A stretch of DNA of 64,000 nucleotides from Vicinamibacterales bacterium. Its GTDB lineage: Bacteria > Acidobacteriota > Vicinamibacteria > Vicinamibacterales > 2-12-FULL-66-21. The notes below the pieces were generated by a model. The model was given only the letters and a program-made list of their open reading frames with translations. It was not told the origin of the DNA and did no database searches. The stretch is taken from positions 1 to 64,000 of the forward strand of contig DASSPH010000073.1 of the NCBI GenBank assembly GCA_035699745.1, read 5' to 3'. Both the position numbers and the translations under genes were made by a program. The number at the start of each line of letters is the position of its first letter. Position 1 is the first letter of the stretch. Below, piece by piece: positions 12,754-63,715 of the stretch.

Positions 12754-13260
12754 ATGAAGAATCTGCTCGCCGCCGCGGCGTTCCTCCTGCTCGCACCCGC
12801 GCCGGCGTTCGCCGACCTGACGGCGTTTCTCGGCCGCACCACCACGCCGGAGGCGCGCAACACCAAGGGCTTCGCCATCGGCACCGGTCTGCTGATCGTC
12901 GGCTTCGAGTTCGAGTACGGCGCCACCGACGAGAAGCTGCGCACCGCGACCAGCAGCACGGCCGACGAAGACGCGCCGGCGCTGAAGACGTTCATGTTCA
13001 ACGGACTGCTGCAGACCCCGATCCCGATCGCGCGGACGCAGTTCTACGGCACGCTCGGCGCCGGCGTGTACCGCGAGACGCTCTCGACCGACGAGCCCAA
13101 CGACGGCACGAACTTCGGCACGAACGTCGGCGGCGGCGCGAAAATCACGCTCGCGGGACCGATTCGGCTGCGCCTGGATTACCGGGTGTTCAGTCTGCGG
13201 GGATCACCGCGCCACGCGACGGTGCAGCGCCTCTACGCCGGCATCAATCTGAAGTTCTGA
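12754..13260 (+). CDS. Secreted outer-membrane beta-barrel-like protein
   Basis: 168 residues with a clear signal peptide (MKNLLAAAAFLLLAPAPAFA). The mature part alternates polar and hydrophobic residues with many Gly/aromatic positions (FAIGTGLLIVGFEFEYGA, FYGTLGAGVYRETL, FGTNVGGGAKITLAGPIRLR) and ends in LYAGINLKF, the terminal phenylalanine typical of outer-membrane barrels. GATGAGG lies just before the ATG. It converges on the 13333-13845 gene, with a palindromic 8-mer array between them. Function unknown. Confidence 0.75.
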   Translation: MKNLLAAAAFLLLAPAPAFADLTAFLGRTTTPEARNTKGFAIGTGLLIVGFEFEYGATDEKLRTATSSTADEDAPALKTFMFNGLLQTPIPIARTQFYGTLGAGVYRETLSTDEPNDGTNFGTNVGGGAKITLAGPIRLRLDYRVFSLRGSPRHATVQRLYAGINLKF

Positions 13261-13261
13261 G

Positions 13262-13332
13262 AATCTGGAAATCTGGAAATTTGGAAATCTAAAATGCAGA
13301 TTTCCAGATTTCCAAATTTCCAGATTTCCAAA
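13262..13332. repeat. Palindromic 8-mer array (GGAAATCT)
   Basis: Between two convergent genes. The left arm has three units of GGAAATCT/GGAAATTT (about 13267-13290); the right arm has four units of AGATTTCC/AAATTTCC (about 13299-13329). The two arms are nearly perfect reverse complements around a short centre (AAAATGC), so the transcript could form a strong hairpin and may act as a two-way terminator. It is markedly more AT-rich than its surroundings. Confidence 0.88.
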
Positions 13333-13845
13333 TTACTTCACGGTCGGGGACATGTTGGTCGTCAGCTGCAGATTGAGCAGCGTCTGCCCGCTGGCGAAGC
13401 AGGCCTGATACTTCGCCCACAGATCCTGCGCTTCGCTGGGAAACGCTTCCCGCAGGATGTCGGTGATCGTGTAGTCGGCATCCTTCACCGGCGGATCCAG
13501 GATCCACATGTAGACGACGTTGCCGCCGGGGGCGGGCTCGAGTCCCTTGAACACGCGCCAGCCGAGGGCCTGCTGCTTGCGTTTCGGGTCGTCGCTCCTG
13601 GTGAGCCCTTCCTTGACGCGCGCCATCACCGCCTCGAAATCGGCGGTCTTGTCCGGTTTGATGACGCTGAACATGACGCCGGCATCGGAGGTGAAGCGGC
13701 GCGACGCGGGAACCGAGGGGGAGGTCTGTGGAGTCGCCGCGGCCTGGCCCGGAGCGGGCACAGGCGCGGCAGGCGGCTGGGGAGCCGTTTGCGCCGCGGC
13801 GGACACCGCCGCGAGCGCCATCATGAGCAACGAGCTGACTTTCAC
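13333..13845 (-). CDS. Secreted protein, tandem paralogue B
   Basis: 170 residues from the GTG at 13845, with signal peptide VKVSSLLMMALAAVSAAAQ, a Pro/Ala/Gln-rich linker, then a domain that aligns with the next gene: GVMFSVIKPDKTADFEAVMA and ALGWRVFKGLEPAPGGNVVY with ILDPPVKDADYTITDILREA. Family and function not recognised; the phrase 'IKPDKTADFE' suggests a small periplasmic domain. The frame is open upstream to 13953, but the signal peptide decides the start. It lies 38 bp after the stop of its paralogue. Confidence 0.75.
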   Translation of the reverse strand: MKVSSLLMMALAAVSAAAQTAPQPPAAPVPAPGQAAATPQTSPSVPASRRFTSDAGVMFSVIKPDKTADFEAVMARVKEGLTRSDDPKRKQQALGWRVFKGLEPAPGGNVVYMWILDPPVKDADYTITDILREAFPSEAQDLWAKYQACFASGQTLLNLQLTTNMSPTVK

Positions 13846-17179: not shown

Positions 17180-18230
17180 ACAGCTTCCCGAACTCGCGCA
17201 TCAGCTCTTTGCCGCGCTCGTCGACGATCTGCGGCAGCACGATGGTGACGTCGACGATGAGATCGCCGCGGCCGCCGGCGGCGGTCGGCGCGCCGCGCTC
17301 GCGGAGGCGGAACCGCTGCCCCGCCTGCGTGCCCGGCGGAATCCGCAGCTTCACGGGCCCCTCGAGCGACGGCACGTCGACGCGGGCGCCGAGGACCGCG
17401 TCGTGCACGCGGATCGGCACGGTGACGCAGAGATCGTCTCCCTGGCGGCGGAACGTCGGGTGCGGCTGCACGTGGACGGTGACGTAGAGGTCGCCGTTCG
17501 GCGCGCCGCGCCGTCCCGCGTGCCCCCGGCCGGCGATGCGCAGGCGGGCGCCGTCGTGCACGCCGGCCGGAACCGTGACCGGCGCCGCCTCGCTCCGGAC
17601 CTGCAGTCCCTGGCCGCCACACGCCGCACAACGCTGCGTCTGCTGCCGTCCCGATCCGTGGCACGCCGCGCAGCTCTTCGTGAACACCATGTGGCCGCGG
17701 GCCCAGCGGACCTTGCCGGTCCCCTGACACGGCGCGCAGCGCCCTTCCGGCGTGCGCACCGTTCCGCCGCCGCCGCACACGCCGCAGGCGTGCTGACGGA
17801 CGATGACGACCTGCTGCGCCGCGCCGCGCATCGCCTCTTCGAACGAGACGGTCAGCGCCGCGTGGATGTCAGCCCCCTGCTGCGGGCGGCCGGCATCGGA
17901 CGGCCGAACGGGATGCAGCACCTCCGCGAACAACTCGGTGAACGTCGCCGCCTGGGGTCCGTGCGCGGCAGAGGAGAAATCGAACCCGGTGAACTCGAAC
18001 GTCGTGGCGCCGTTGGGCGCGGTCTGCCCGCCGGACGTGTCGTACGACCGGCGCCGATCCGGATCGACGAGCGTCTCGTACGCTTCGGAGATCCGCTTGT
18101 ACAGACTCGCGGCAGCGCGATCGCCCGGATTGATGTCCGGATGGTACCGCCGCGAGAGCCGCCGGTAGGCGCGCTTGATCTCGGACGGCGACGCCCCAGG
18201 CGCAAGGCCGAGCAGCGAGTACAGATCCAT
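17169..18230 (-). CDS. dnaJ: DnaJ co-chaperone
   Basis: 353 residues, normal for type I DnaJ. J domain MDLYSLLGLAPGASPSEIKR with the HPD motif at 30-32; a short Gly/Phe-poor linker; four zinc-binding repeats CGVCGGGG, CAPCQGTG, CAACHGSG and CAACGGQG; then the substrate-binding C-terminal domains (PPGTQAGQRFRLRERG). The frame is open upstream through the repeat-filled gap, but the ATG at 18230 gives the universal J-domain start. No grpE lies between dnaK and dnaJ. Probably transcribed from the dnaK promoter through a 202-bp repeat region. Confidence 0.95.
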
Positions 18231-18234
18231 GTCA

Positions 18235-18420
18235 AATCCCAACTTCCAAGGCCCAACGCCCAACGAACGCTCAACTCCCAACGCCCAAAACTCCCAAACT
18301 CCCAAGGCTCCCAAGCTCCCAGGACTCCCCAACGCCAACCCCCGTCGCGATCTGCTGGGCGTCGGGCGTTGGGCGTTGGGCGTTAATTGGAGCGTTGGGC
18401 GTTGGCCGCTTGGGCCTTGA
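18235..18420. repeat. Large inverted heptamer array (CCCAACG / CGTTGGG) between dnaK and dnaJ
   Basis: Left arm (about 18235-18340): CCCAACT, TCCAAGG, CCCAACG, CCCAACG, then units of AACTCCC, AACGCCC and AAGCTCCC. Right arm (about 18354-18416): GGGCGTC, GGGCGTT three times, AATTGGAGCGTT, GGGCGTT. The arms are inverted, so the dnaK-dnaJ mRNA could fold here into a long hairpin, which might lower dnaJ expression or stabilise the dnaK part. Confidence 0.85.
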
Positions 18421-18432
18421 CGCAACTCAGCC

Positions 18433-22496: not shown

Positions 22497-22622
22497 CCGG
22501 CACCCGGCACCCGGCAACCGGCTACCGGCTACCGGCAACCGGCAACCGGTTACCGGCAACTGGCAACTGGCAACCGGCTACCGGCTACCGGCAACTGGCA
22601 ACTGGCAACTGGCAACTGGCAA
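22497..22622. repeat. Heptamer tandem array (CYGGCAA/CCGGCTA), 18 units
   Basis: Eighteen contiguous 7-bp units in perfect phase fill the gap before the PBP1A gene: CCGGCAC twice, then CCGGCAA, CCGGCTA, CCGGTTA and CTGGCAA variants, with a clear shift from CCGG to CTGG towards the 3' end. A degenerate unit CTGCAAC follows. The reverse complement of CCGGCTA tandem DNA is the unit found at 47230-47313. Confidence 0.92.
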
Positions 22623-22652
22623 CTGCAACACACAGCGGCAGAAACGACCTGG

Positions 22653-24953: not shown

Positions 24954-25066
24954 CGGGAATTGGCGACCGGCGATTGCAGAGTGCCGATCGACGGTTGTCG
25001 ATTGGATGATTGCAGATCGACGGATTGACGATTGGCGATTGCGATTGGCGATTGGATTGGCGATTG
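24954..25066. repeat. Left inverted arm of CGATTGG array flanking the four-helix-bundle gene
   Basis: Units such as GGCGATT, GCCGATC, GACGGTT, GTCGATT, GACGGATT and GACGATT, mostly 7 bp, orientation GATTGG on the plus strand. It starts right after the PBP1A stop and ends at the stop codon of the four-helix-bundle gene. The opposite orientation is found at 25582-25679. Confidence 0.88.
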
Positions 25067-25067
25067 T

Positions 25068-25481
25068 TTACCGCGGACGCCGGAGAGTTCCCCGCAGTTG
25101 CTTCTCGTGGCGGTCGTGCTCAGCCTTCCTCTGCTCGGCAGTCTTGCGTGACTTCACGAGGATCGCGGTGAGCTCGTCGGCTTCCTGAATCAGTGGACCA
25201 GCCTGATCGAGCGTCACGCGGTTCGACTCGACGAGCAACTGCAGCCATCCCTTGGACTCGTCGGCCTCTTCCACCGCAACGCCAAGCTTTGCGATGAACT
25301 CCGCCTTGCTCCTCGCGCGGCAGGCCGCTCGATAGTTGCTGTCGGTCCCGCCGGACGAATCGACCAGCTGCGACACGATACGTTGCGTGCCCGCGTCTTT
25401 CGCGAGCGTGTCGCACAATTTGATCACACCGGCGGCGAACGTCTGAATTCTGGCCTGAAGTGCAATGGTCTTCGGATGCAT
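25068..25481 (-). CDS. Four-helix-bundle protein (S23 / 23S rRNA intervening-sequence protein family)
   Basis: 137 residues, all helical. It shows the pattern of the TIGR02436/S23 family, also related to the bAvd accessory protein of diversity-generating retroelements: an N-terminal helix (IALQARIQTFAAGVIKLCDT), the conserved turn QLVDSSGGTDSNYRAACRAR and the third-fourth helices KAEFIAKLGVAVEEADESKG. The C-terminus is basic. No reverse transcriptase, rRNA or variable repeat is nearby. It is bracketed by inverted CGATTGG arrays, reads opposite to PBP1A, and its GC content and codon use look less extreme than in its neighbours. Biological role unknown. Confidence 0.85.
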   Translation of the reverse strand: MHPKTIALQARIQTFAAGVIKLCDTLAKDAGTQRIVSQLVDSSGGTDSNYRAACRARSKAEFIAKLGVAVEEADESKGWLQLLVESNRVTLDQAGPLIQEADELTAILVKSRKTAEQRKAEHDRHEKQLRGTLRRPR

Positions 25482-25581
25482 CCGGCGCCCTGCTGCACGC
25501 GGGACGCCAAGAGCATTCAGGCCTGATTTCGCGAGCCTGTGTCGAATTCAATCACACAGTACGCAGCCGCTGCGAACTACC

Positions 25582-25679
25582 CCCCAATCTCCAATCGCCA
25601 ATCCGTCGATCGCCAACCGCCAATCGCCAACCGTCGATCCGCAATCGCCAATCGCCAATCGCCAATCGCCAATCGCCGG
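25582..25679. repeat. Right inverted arm of CGATTGG array (CGCCAAT orientation)
   Basis: Units AATCTCC, AATCGCC, AATCCGTC, GATCGCC, AACCGCC, AATCGCC and so on, ending with five near-perfect AATCGCC units, up to the prfB stop codon. It is the reverse complement of the left arm (24954-25066). Between this arm and the four-helix-bundle start (25482-25581) is about 100 bp with no recognised motif, probably holding that gene's promoter. Confidence 0.88.
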
Positions 25680-26826: not shown

Positions 26827-26875
26827 GTTCGAGGGTCGAGGCTCGAGGTTCGAGGGTCGAGGCTCGAGGTTCGGG
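26827..26875. repeat. Heptamer tandem array (GNTCGAG), 7 units
   Basis: Fills the whole 53-bp gap between lnt and prfB with seven units in phase: GTTCGAG, GGTCGAG, GCTCGAG, repeated, then GTTCGGG. The three-unit cycle (GTT, GGT, GCT) suggests a 21-bp higher-order duplication. It occupies the place of a prfB leader and ribosome binding site. Confidence 0.88.
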
Positions 26876-47229: not shown

Positions 47230-47313
47230 GCCGGCAGCCGGTAGCCGGTGGCCGATCGCCGGTGGCCGGTAGCCGGTGGCCGGTAGCCGGTAGCCGGTAG
47301 CCGGCAGCCGAAA
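47230..47313. repeat. Heptamer tandem array (GCCGGTA), 12 units
   Basis: Twelve 7-bp units in phase between the two mutase genes: GCCGGCA, GCCGGTA, GCCGGTG, GCCGATC, GCCGGTG, GCCGGTA, GCCGGTG, three GCCGGTA, GCCGGCA and GCCGAAA. It ends immediately at the stop codon of the large subunit. It is the reverse complement of the CCGGCTA-type array at 22497-22622; relative to the direction of transcription both arrays have the same orientation. Confidence 0.9.
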
Positions 47314-49084: not shown

Positions 49085-50335
49085 ATGGAAGGAAACGGCA
49101 GCGTTTTCAACGCGATGCTCCAGGAGTTCGACGGAGCCGCGCGCCTGCTCGGACTCGATCCCGGCATCTGGAAGATTCTCACCTCCCCGAAGCGGCAGAT
49201 CGTCGTGTCGTGCCCGATCCAGATGGACAACGGCGAGATCGAGGTCTTCACCGGCTACCGGGTCCAATACAACATCACCCTCGGCCCCGCCAAGGGCGGC
49301 ATCCGCTACCACCCGAACGTCACGCTCGACGAAGTCACCGCGCTCGCCGCGTGGATGACCTGGAAATGCGCCGTCGCCCACGTCCCCTTCGGGGGCGGCA
49401 AGGGAGGGATCATCGTCGACCCGAACCGCCTGTCGCGCCGCGAGCTCGAGGCGCTCACGCGCCGTTACATCGCGGAGATCGTCGACGCGATCGGGCCCGA
49501 GAAGGACGTGCCGGCGCCCGACGTCAACACCAACGATCAGATCATGGCGTGGGTGATGGACACCTACAGCATGCACGTCGGCCACACCGCCACGGCGGTG
49601 GTCACCGGCAAGCCGATCGAGATGGGCGGATCGCTCGGGCGCCGCGAGGCGACCGGCCGCGGCGTCATGATCGTCACCCGCGAGGCGGCAAAGCATCTCG
49701 GCCTCGACATCAAGACGGCGACGGTCGCGGTGCAGGGCTTCGGCAACGTCGGCTCGGTGTCGGCGGACCTGCTGGCGAAGATCGGCGCGCGGATCGTCGC
49801 CGTGACCGACTGGAAGGGCGGCGTCTACAACGAGAAGGGGCTCGACATCCCGAAGATGCTCGATTACGTCAAGCAGCACCGTTCGGTGGAGGGCTTCAGC
49901 GGCGGCGAGGCGCTCGACAACACGAAGCTGTTCGGGCTCGACGTCGACGTGCTGATTCCGGCGGCGCTCGAGAATCAGATCACGATGGAGAACGCGTCGA
50001 CAATCCGCGCCAGGATCATCGCCGAAGGGGCCAACGGCCCGACGACGCCGGACGCGCACAAGTCGCTGCACGACCGCGGCGTGTTCGTCATCCCCGACAT
50101 CCTGGCCAACGCCGGCGGCGTCACCACCTCGTACTTCGAGTGGGTGCAGGACCGCCACGGCTACTTCTGGAGCGAGCAGGAAGTGAACCAGCGCCTCGAA
50201 GCCAAGATGTGCGAGGCGTTCGACGACGTCCTCAAGACGGCCCAGCGGTACAAGACCGACATGCGCACCGCCGCCTACATCGTCGCCATCAACCGGGTCG
50301 CCACCGTCACCAAGATGCGCGGGATGTACGCCTAG
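49085..50335 (+). CDS. gdhA: Glutamate dehydrogenase, NAD(P)-dependent
   Basis: Oxidative deamination of glutamate or the reverse. 416 residues from ATG 49085, with GGGAGAAAC just upstream. Catalytic motifs: [20 protein letters not shown] (substrate Lys), [20 protein letters not shown] (catalytic Lys), [19 protein letters not shown], Rossmann [17 protein letters not shown], and NQITMENAS. Hexameric small GDH type; the ...[18 protein letters not shown] segment fits it, but NAD versus NADP preference is not decided by eye. A longer TTG frame from 49028 is rejected because it runs through the promoter. Confidence 0.95.
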
Positions 50336-50340
50336 GGAGG

Positions 50341-50640
50341 GTCGCTTCGCTCCCTGTCGGGCAGGGTGGAAGGGAGGGTCGCTTCGCTCCCTGTCGGGCA
50401 GGGTGGAAGGGGGGCTCGCTTCGCTCGCGGTCAGGGCAGCGTGGAAGGGTGGCTCGCTTCGCTCGCGGTCGGGCAGCGCGGAAGGGTGGCTCGCTTCGCT
50501 CGTCGTCGGGGCAGCGTGGAAGGATGGCTCGTTTCGCTCGCGGTCGGGCAGAGGTACAGCGGGCTCGCGTTCGCTCGCCGTCGGGCAGCGTGGACGAGGG
50601 GCTCGCGTTCGCTCGCCGTCGGGCGGCGTGGACGGGCGGG
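50341..50640. repeat. Tandem repeat of about 37 bp, 8-9 copies, after gdhA
   Basis: Fills the 361-bp gap between gdhA and the ADOP gene. Anchor word CTCGCTTCGCTCG (or GTCGCTTCGCTCC) recurs at 50341, 50378, 50415, 50453, 50490, 50528, 50564 and 50602 (spacing 36-38 bp), followed by a degenerate copy. Each unit also has GGTCGGGCAG and GTGGAAGGG. Units are contiguous, with no variable spacers. CTCGCTTCGCTCG-type text can form small hairpins. The last ~50 bp (50645-50696) are plain leader for the next gene. Confidence 0.88.
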
Positions 50641-50696
50641 TCGCCGCCGGCAGGACACTGCTGAACTCCAGCGGCTGAGTCCGCGTATTCTCGGGC

Positions 50697-63055: not shown

Positions 63056-63547
63056 TCAGCCGCCGGCGAGCCGGGCGAACACCGGTCTGAGACGCGCCCC
63101 GGTGACCGGCAGATCCTCCGCCAGCACGCGCGTCTGTCCGACCACGCTCATGAAGTTGGTGTCGCCGTTCCAGCGCGGGACGACGTGCATGTGCACGTGG
63201 TCGAGAACGCCGGCCCCTGCCGGCTTGCCGAGATTGATCCCCATGTTGATGCCGTGCGGCGCGTAGGCTTCGGTCAGCGCGAGCTCCGCCGTCCGCGTCA
63301 GGTCGATCAGCTCACGCAGCTCCTCCGGCGTCGCCGCCGCGAGAGACGGGATATGGCGGTTGGGGATCACCATCAGGTGCCCGTTGTTGTACGGGAAGAG
63401 ATTCAGGATGACGTAGCACGCGGTGCCGCGGAACACGATGAGCGGCTCCGCGTCCGGACTCGTGAGGGCGGCGCAAAAAACACAGCCCGTGGCCTGGCTC
63501 GCCCCGGTGATATAGGCGAGCCGCCACGGGCTCCAAAGGTGGTCCAT
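63056..63547 (-). CDS. HIT-family nucleotide hydrolase
   Basis: 163 residues from ATG 63547. Histidine triad HVHMHVVPRW at 117-126 (H117, H119, H121), nucleotide-binding N-terminus LIVFRGTACYVILNLFPYNN and zinc-like pair GCVFCAAL (C22, C25). The GC-rich longer frame upstream (to 63706) reads through a repeat array and is rejected. Diadenosine/adenylated-peptide hydrolases of this branch usually have 140-165 residues. It precedes the HU gene across an inverted repeat. Confidence 0.93.
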   Translation of the reverse strand: MDHLWSPWRLAYITGASQATGCVFCAALTSPDAEPLIVFRGTACYVILNLFPYNNGHLMVIPNRHIPSLAAATPEELRELIDLTRTAELALTEAYAPHGINMGINLGKPAGAGVLDHVHMHVVPRWNGDTNFMSVVGQTRVLAEDLPVTGARLRPVFARLAGG

Positions 63548-63562
63548 TTCAGATGGCCGAGC

Positions 63563-63715
63563 GCCGATTGCCGATCGACAAGTGTCGATTGACGGATTGC
63601 TGATCGACGGATTGTTGATTGGTGATTGAGCGCATTCCCCAATCTTCAATCCGTCGATCGCCAATCGCCAATCGCCAAACGTCGATCGCCAATCCGCAAT
63701 CGCCAATCTGCAATG
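63563..63715. repeat. Gene-less CGATTGG inverted array element
   Basis: Left arm 63563-63628 (GCCGATT, GCCGATC, GTCGATT, GACGGATT, GCTGATC, GTTGATT) and right arm 63633-63715 (CCCCAATCTTCAATC, then GATCGCC, AATCGCC, AAACGTC, AATCCGC units) in opposite orientation, joined by a few bases only. The right arm is strikingly like the one at 25582-25679, including its opening CCCCAATCT and the CGTCGATCGCCAA words. It ends at the stop codon of the HU gene. Confidence 0.88.

Follow-up and report, generated by a model that had tools for sequence, protein, structure and literature searches.

Between the PBP1A gene and prfB, in the 64,000-nucleotide stretch of Vicinamibacterales DNA that constitutes the window analyzed here, a gene of the S23 family is enclosed by two arrays of short tandem repeats. 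These features, along with a gene-less palindrome found elsewhere in the window, are as follows:

24959..25066, + strand: left arm, a degenerate tandem array of ATTGGCG/GATTGGC with a period of 7 and 15.6 copies, located 3' of the S23 gene
25068..25481, - strand: S23-family (TIGR02436/PF05635) four-helix-bundle gene of 137 aa, assigned by profile matches and predicted fold
25482..25583, - strand: non-coding leader from the right arm to the start codon, with a hairpin-forming stretch directly 5' of the ATG, as read from the sequence
25584..25677, - strand: right arm, a degenerate tandem array of CCAATCG (GATTGGC on the gene strand) with a period of 7 and 13.3 copies, located upstream of the gene
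63544..63715, no strand assigned: gene-less palindrome with GATTG arms and a short loop, which has GATCGACGGATTG in common with the cassette arms and is a candidate non-autonomous relative

The original prediction described repeat arms of opposite orientation that adjoin the stop codons of the neighboring genes, and both points were borne out. Stretches of 47 nt in the two arms are 85% complementary and several 15-mers are 100% complementary, with a local score for the arm pair of 93 versus 28 or less in cross-locus pairs. The stop codons of the PBP1A gene (24953) and prfB (25680) each lie within a few bases of one arm. Single CGATTGG words are only slightly in excess in the window (17 versus 10.7 expected); what exceeds chance is their clustering and inverted layout, not the word count.

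The proposed identity of the 137-residue product as an S23/bAvd-like four-helix bundle was confirmed by matches to TIGR02436 (65.1 bits; cut-off of 24) and PF05635 (42.9 bits; cut-off of 33.8), the latter being the sole family match in the cassette gene, and by an AlphaFold (AF2) model that is an all-helical bundle (pLDDT of 95.7). The best match of this model in the PDB is 2rld, and the S23 structure 2gsc is also matched; both comprise five chains. The model likewise matches bAvd (4dwl) and a DGR ribonucleoprotein (8ub7), with TM values by target of 0.82-0.85. The dN/dS values for S23 (0.20-0.42) indicate purifying selection. No catalytic motif is known in the S23 family, and although S23/four-helix-bundle genes have been annotated in bacteria at large, no function has been assigned to them beyond rRNA. 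No transposase is encoded inside the cassette. The earlier statement that neither 23S rRNA nor a diversity-generating retroelement (DGR) accompanies the gene also holds, in that no match to rRNA or another Rfam family was detected anywhere in the window and no RVT_1 reverse transcriptase was detected in the whole of the window genome (G000). RVT_1 was absent from five of nine S23-bearing genomes (G000, G001, G193, G228, and G337), and dependence of the element on a reverse transcriptase or DGR was rejected on these grounds.

A total of eight copies of TIGR02436, including the window gene, are encoded in the window genome. Their flanks have the same layout with units that vary by locus (GGGTGATC, GATTGGC, GTCAGTGC, CGAATCC, TTCTACGGG, and the longer GTCGCTTCGCTCCC). 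Most arms of the seven other genes have a unit of their own that matches within the locus only, and two copies (L003 and L007) are without clear arms. When the upstream 600 bp were locally aligned with the reverse complement of the downstream 600 bp, inverted arms scoring at least 40 were detected at 62 of 85 S23 loci of the class (73%), versus 6 of 85 (7%) in a direct-orientation control, 1.8% of cross-locus pairs, and 0.13% of random positions in the same genome; none of 10 prfB loci reached this score. S23 genes are thus statistically flanked by such arms, as the cassette idea had anticipated. In a set drawn from many phyla, 41 of 75 S23 loci scored at least 35 versus 3 of 75 in direct orientation and 0.8% of cross pairs. 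Inverted arms were also identified at 26 of 30 Xanthomonadales S23 loci, around most of the plasmid S23 genes examined, and in Clostridia, Bacteroidota, Pseudomonadota, Cyanobacteriota, Planctomycetota, and CPR bacteria. At 86 of 117 loci the fundamental period is divisible by 7 and at 19 it is 8, and the upstream arm is G-rich at 100 of the 117, giving the arrays a polarity relative to the S23 gene. An origin of the arms as the 3' ends of convergent genes was rejected, given that they are still inverted where neighboring genes are co-directional, namely at a permease/EF-G locus and in plasmid operons.

Two further observations concern the surroundings of these genes. In several genera (L012, L018, L019, L024, and L033), an S23 gene lies at a conserved position, with a permease gene on one side and an EF-G-like gene on the other, and has CAGCTTC-type arms that vary by genus; at L033, the upstream arm is missing and the S23 gene is shorter. 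Upstream of the S23 start at L001, L006, and L005 is a conserved leader, TTAGGAAA..GGCCGGCAC, CGGCACTTCYTATGC, followed by a small hairpin before the start codon.

The relationship between the array unit and the protein was examined in two sets of loci, one (P0001-like) collected solely by protein similarity to the window protein and the other by similarity to the S23 protein of L006 (~32-44% identity; several host families). GATT/AATTG-rich arms were present at 19 of 23 P0001-like loci and GGTKC-rich arms at 26 of 30 L006-like loci, and no locus of either set was classed with the motif of the other (Fisher, 4e-13). Mapped onto a tree of 117 S23 proteins, the motif class requires 18 changes, versus at least 41 with shuffled labels and at least 38 when shuffles were confined to host family. 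Arm similarity and protein similarity are correlated (Mantel r = 0.40; 0 of 2000 permutations), with a weak correlation in the multi-phylum set (r = 0.09; 18 of 2000). It should be noted that these tests use related sequences and that the P values are therefore nominal. Among distant plasmid relatives of P0001, GATT is present in only some (L298, L302, L306, and L313) and is often absent, and the possibility that it is universal among relatives of the window protein was rejected. The core array motif is thus shown to depend on S23 clade, and the general rule that a clade is paired with cognate inverted arrays is well supported; the link between unit and clade weakens with distance.

Arrays also occur without an enclosed gene. 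A 762-kb scan of the window genome identified gene-less palindromes with the units of four S23 loci (L001, L002, L005, and L006), whereas gene-sized pairs of periodic arms enclosed S23 three times and thpR once. This ratio is biased, since 419 kb of the scan were contigs picked for S23; the 343 kb scanned without such choice contain the thpR pair but no S23. The thpR pair (L055; G000:C1:2646-3301) consists of inverted CGGCTTC arrays around a thpR (2'-5' RNA ligase)-like gene with no S23. A total of 68 arrays were counted in 436 kb of the window genome, such that arrays far outnumber S23 genes, and for many array families no S23 of their own unit was found there. In Rhodanobacter (G193), where gene-less palindromes of an S23 unit also occur, the GGGATTC matches listed form 14 convergent pairs and no divergent ones. 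The window itself contains additional arrays or palindromes (13246-13334, 18230-18421, 22497-22623, 26829-26873, 47230-47310, and 50334-50644) with the units AATCTGGA, CCCAACG, CCGGCAA, TCGAGGC, GCCGGTA, and a 37-mer containing TCGCTTCGCTCGC. Most of these have no same-unit S23 in the genome; similarity to the L008 arms was noted for the 37-mer.

Across genomes, the GATTG pattern was detected in 38 of 65 genomes with a P0001-like S23 versus 12 of 128 without one; viewed in reverse, a P0001-like S23 was encoded in 38 of 50 genomes with GATTG arrays versus 27 of 143 others. All seven genomes with GGGTTCT arrays encode an L006-like S23, which is encoded in 80 of 193 genomes overall. GGGAWTC has 39-253 matches in each of six genomes with an intact close ortholog of XCC0516/L159, and at least 30 matches in 2 of the 144 others. 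In G208, where this ortholog is split by a stop codon, only nine GGGAWTC matches were found. Four genomes (G263, G287, G296, and G301) have an array without a detected cognate S23. These counts are uncorrected for shared ancestry. In three clades, the presence of gene-less arrays is correlated with that of the cognate S23; the known but so far unexplained GGGAATC repeats of Xanthomonadales belong to one of these.

It could be argued that the arrays are spread by another enzyme (e.g., a RAYT/HUH or IS transposase) or arise by replication slippage, with S23 a passenger in array-rich intergenic DNA. Such a scenario would accommodate the abundance of arrays relative to S23 genes, the pair that encloses thpR, and a protein without a known catalytic motif. 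Short of a genome-wide HUH search, it is considered improbable because the arms are matched by locus and their motifs are specific to clades, because unit and cognate S23 co-occur in three clades, and because the whole cassette is present or missing as a unit.

This last point derives from syntenic comparisons. The arrangement had been likened to a cassette bounded at its ends by inverted arrays, which might be mobile or amplify itself; syntenic sites without it were found both between prfB and PBP1A and at three sites on cyanobacterial plasmids. At the former, the cassette is present in G000 and G001; the window unit occurs in G006, without S23, and in G002, where a contig end cuts the locus; other units occur in G004 and in G003, the latter as a foreign palindrome; and no array is present in five genomes. 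The three plasmid sites were resolved at base level, the flanking sequences being 85-99% identical. Between nrdB and nrdA, the arm-S23-arm arrangement is present in a Nostoc edaphicum plasmid and missing in Calothrix NIES-4105 (85% identity). Between an integrase gene and its neighbor (hypothetical), the cassette is present in Calothrix NIES-22 and missing in Tolypothrix (90%). Between cas6 and cas4, where Anabaena sp. 90 has the cassette, Dolichospermum UHCC 0315A has an unrelated insert instead (99%). Target-site duplications could not be read at these sites due to diverged flanks or the other insert in the alternative allele. The alternative alleles of the nrdB-nrdA and integrase sites contain no array at all, indicating that the arms are part of the moving unit. 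Arms and gene were thus shown to be present or absent together as one unit, although gain and loss were not polarized and the direction of change is not determined.

The same data constrain a different explanation, in which an S23 element enters the loops of pre-existing palindromic arrays that serve as target sites, in the manner of the intervening sequences (IVS) of 23S rRNA, which replace hairpin loops at the tips of helices 9, 25, and 45 (PMC4990558). In its favor, gene-less palindromes with the same unit do exist, and at prfB-PBP1A, G006 has arrays but no S23 and G003 has a foreign palindrome. As a general rule, insertion into pre-existing palindromes is nevertheless disfavored by the array-free alternative alleles, where arms and gene come and go jointly, and a random target would not be expected to have a unit that tracks the protein clade across bacterial families. 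The explanation is therefore regarded as unlikely.

The original interpretation is thus supported, although active transposition was not demonstrated. A search for recent duplication of gene-bearing cassettes found no near-identical pair within G018 (17 copies, with no more than 67% identity over the aligned full length) or within G000 (8 copies), suggesting that movement of cassettes that include the gene is rare or occurs by horizontal transfer. Plasmid S23 cassettes are often located in or beside defense operons (L304 on pANA02 of Anabaena sp. 90; L298-L300 on Planktothrix agardhii plasmids; L302, L308, L313, L314, and L315), with neighbors that include cas6/cas4, cas1/cas2, DISARM drmD, and DUF1156/Swt1, an association that may simply reflect what plasmids carry. 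S23 cassettes of different types also occupy two places of one conserved integrase operon in Aulosira (L323) and Calothrix (L303) plasmids.

What keeps the two arms alike was considered in terms of RNA and DNA. It has to be asked whether S23 and the arrays are merely co-transferred and function in RNA, with a long transcript hairpin cut by RNase III, as happens in rRNA IVS, and the arrays used for processing or termination rather than mobility. The same gene with inverted flanks is also what is seen in IVS (PMC4990558), and the strong polarity of G-rich and C-rich arms relative to the gene would fit a role in the transcript. Yet arm mismatches have no G-U bias on the gene strand (227 versus 206), which argues that the likeness of the arms is not maintained by pairing in gene-sense RNA and is better explained by events in DNA; RNA-level pairing of the arms was rejected for this reason. 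Nor does an RNA function predict dispersed gene-less copies or clade-specific motifs, and little credence is given to it here.

The interpretation favored instead, and thought likely on balance, is that the gene and its two arms are a cassette that works like RAYT/REPIN, with a catalytically unrelated, Avd-like protein as the cognate factor; the chemistry of dispersal has not been shown. The element would be a single cassette of about half a kilobase in which short tandem arrays, mostly of 7-nt units, flank an S23-family gene as an inverted pair at the termini. The S23 protein, presumably a pentameric, Avd-like four-helix bundle, would recognize, in DNA, the unit characteristic of its clade, an inference made without protein-DNA binding data, and the form recognized would probably be a hairpin or single-stranded DNA. 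Recognition would allow palindromic arrays to be copied to new gene boundaries, the gene-bearing cassette being copied likewise but only occasionally, and would also keep the two arms alike. Since neither a nuclease motif nor a reverse transcriptase goes with S23, the copying step would have to be provided by host replication or repair or by an unidentified enzyme. The resemblance to RAYT/REPIN lies in the layout, in which each repeat family comprises a single copy with the gene and numerous inverted pairs without it.

A role for S23 in array dispersal is considered probable, and the data point to an overlooked and widespread family of repeat-spreading elements. A wider and more tentative proposal, which may hold but cannot yet be favored, is that S23 proteins are the specificity factors of bacteria-wide selfish repeats, each clade with its own 5-7-nt unit, and drive the spread of the repeats and homogenization of the arms without a nuclease or reverse transcriptase of their own. 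If true, this would account for the heptamer repeats long known from Xanthomonas and cyanobacteria and would mean that the S23/Avd fold acts on nucleic acids in a sequence-specific manner. Independent of that proposal, S23 genes and heptameric repeats that had been catalogued without a driver in Xanthomonas and cyanobacteria are shown to belong together, with a clade-specific motif. The function of S23 thereby becomes directly testable through binding to its own unit, and the many S23 clades with different units would form a natural collection of sequence specificities. The data further provide an origin for intergenic repeats of a kind common in bacteria and suggest a relation of Avd-like bundles to mobile DNA. 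The locus-specific units, their dependence on the protein clade, and the dispersed gene-less copies go beyond the original prediction.

Several known systems share individual properties with the cassette. The IVS of 23S rRNA in Leptospira and Coxiella involve the same S23 family, with an ORF between complementary sequences and a sporadic, selfish-like distribution (PMC4990558). The cassette shares the complementary borders but is not located inside a 23S rRNA gene, and it differs further in having flanks that are tandem arrays of 7-9-mers particular to each locus and tracking the protein clade, in its dispersed gene-less copies, and in arms without G-U bias. The bAvd protein of diversity-generating retroelements has a fold in common with the S23 model; unlike bAvd, the cassette has no reverse transcriptase or DGR. 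The heptamers of Xanthomonas (GGGAATC), Nostoc (GGGGAYT), and Beggiatoaceae (TAACTGA) have the same unit length and intergenic dispersal, but no associated gene was reported for them (PMC4692102, PMC4679880). In Xcc, GGGAATC forms ~70 convergent inverted pairs (PMC4692102, PMC4679880) to which no driver and no general link to mobile elements have been assigned (PMC4692102); GGGAATC/GGGATTC arms were found here around XCC0516-like genes in Xanthomonadales. No paper tying S23 to heptamer arrays was found in the open-access literature, with subscription journals and bioRxiv being outside of the search. The closest parallel in organization is RAYT/REPIN (the REPtron), where each repeat family has a distinct single-copy gene, inverted pairs are dispersed intergenically, and gene and repeat co-evolve (PMC3116915). 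The cassette likewise has a gene flanked by an inverted, cognate, and dispersed repeat; however, S23 is an Avd-like four-helix bundle rather than an HUH Y1 transposase, and its repeats are tandem arrays of 7-9 nt units rather than short REP hairpins. Because the gene does not encode an HUH transposase, the cassette is interpreted as working like RAYT/REPIN and not as a member of that system.
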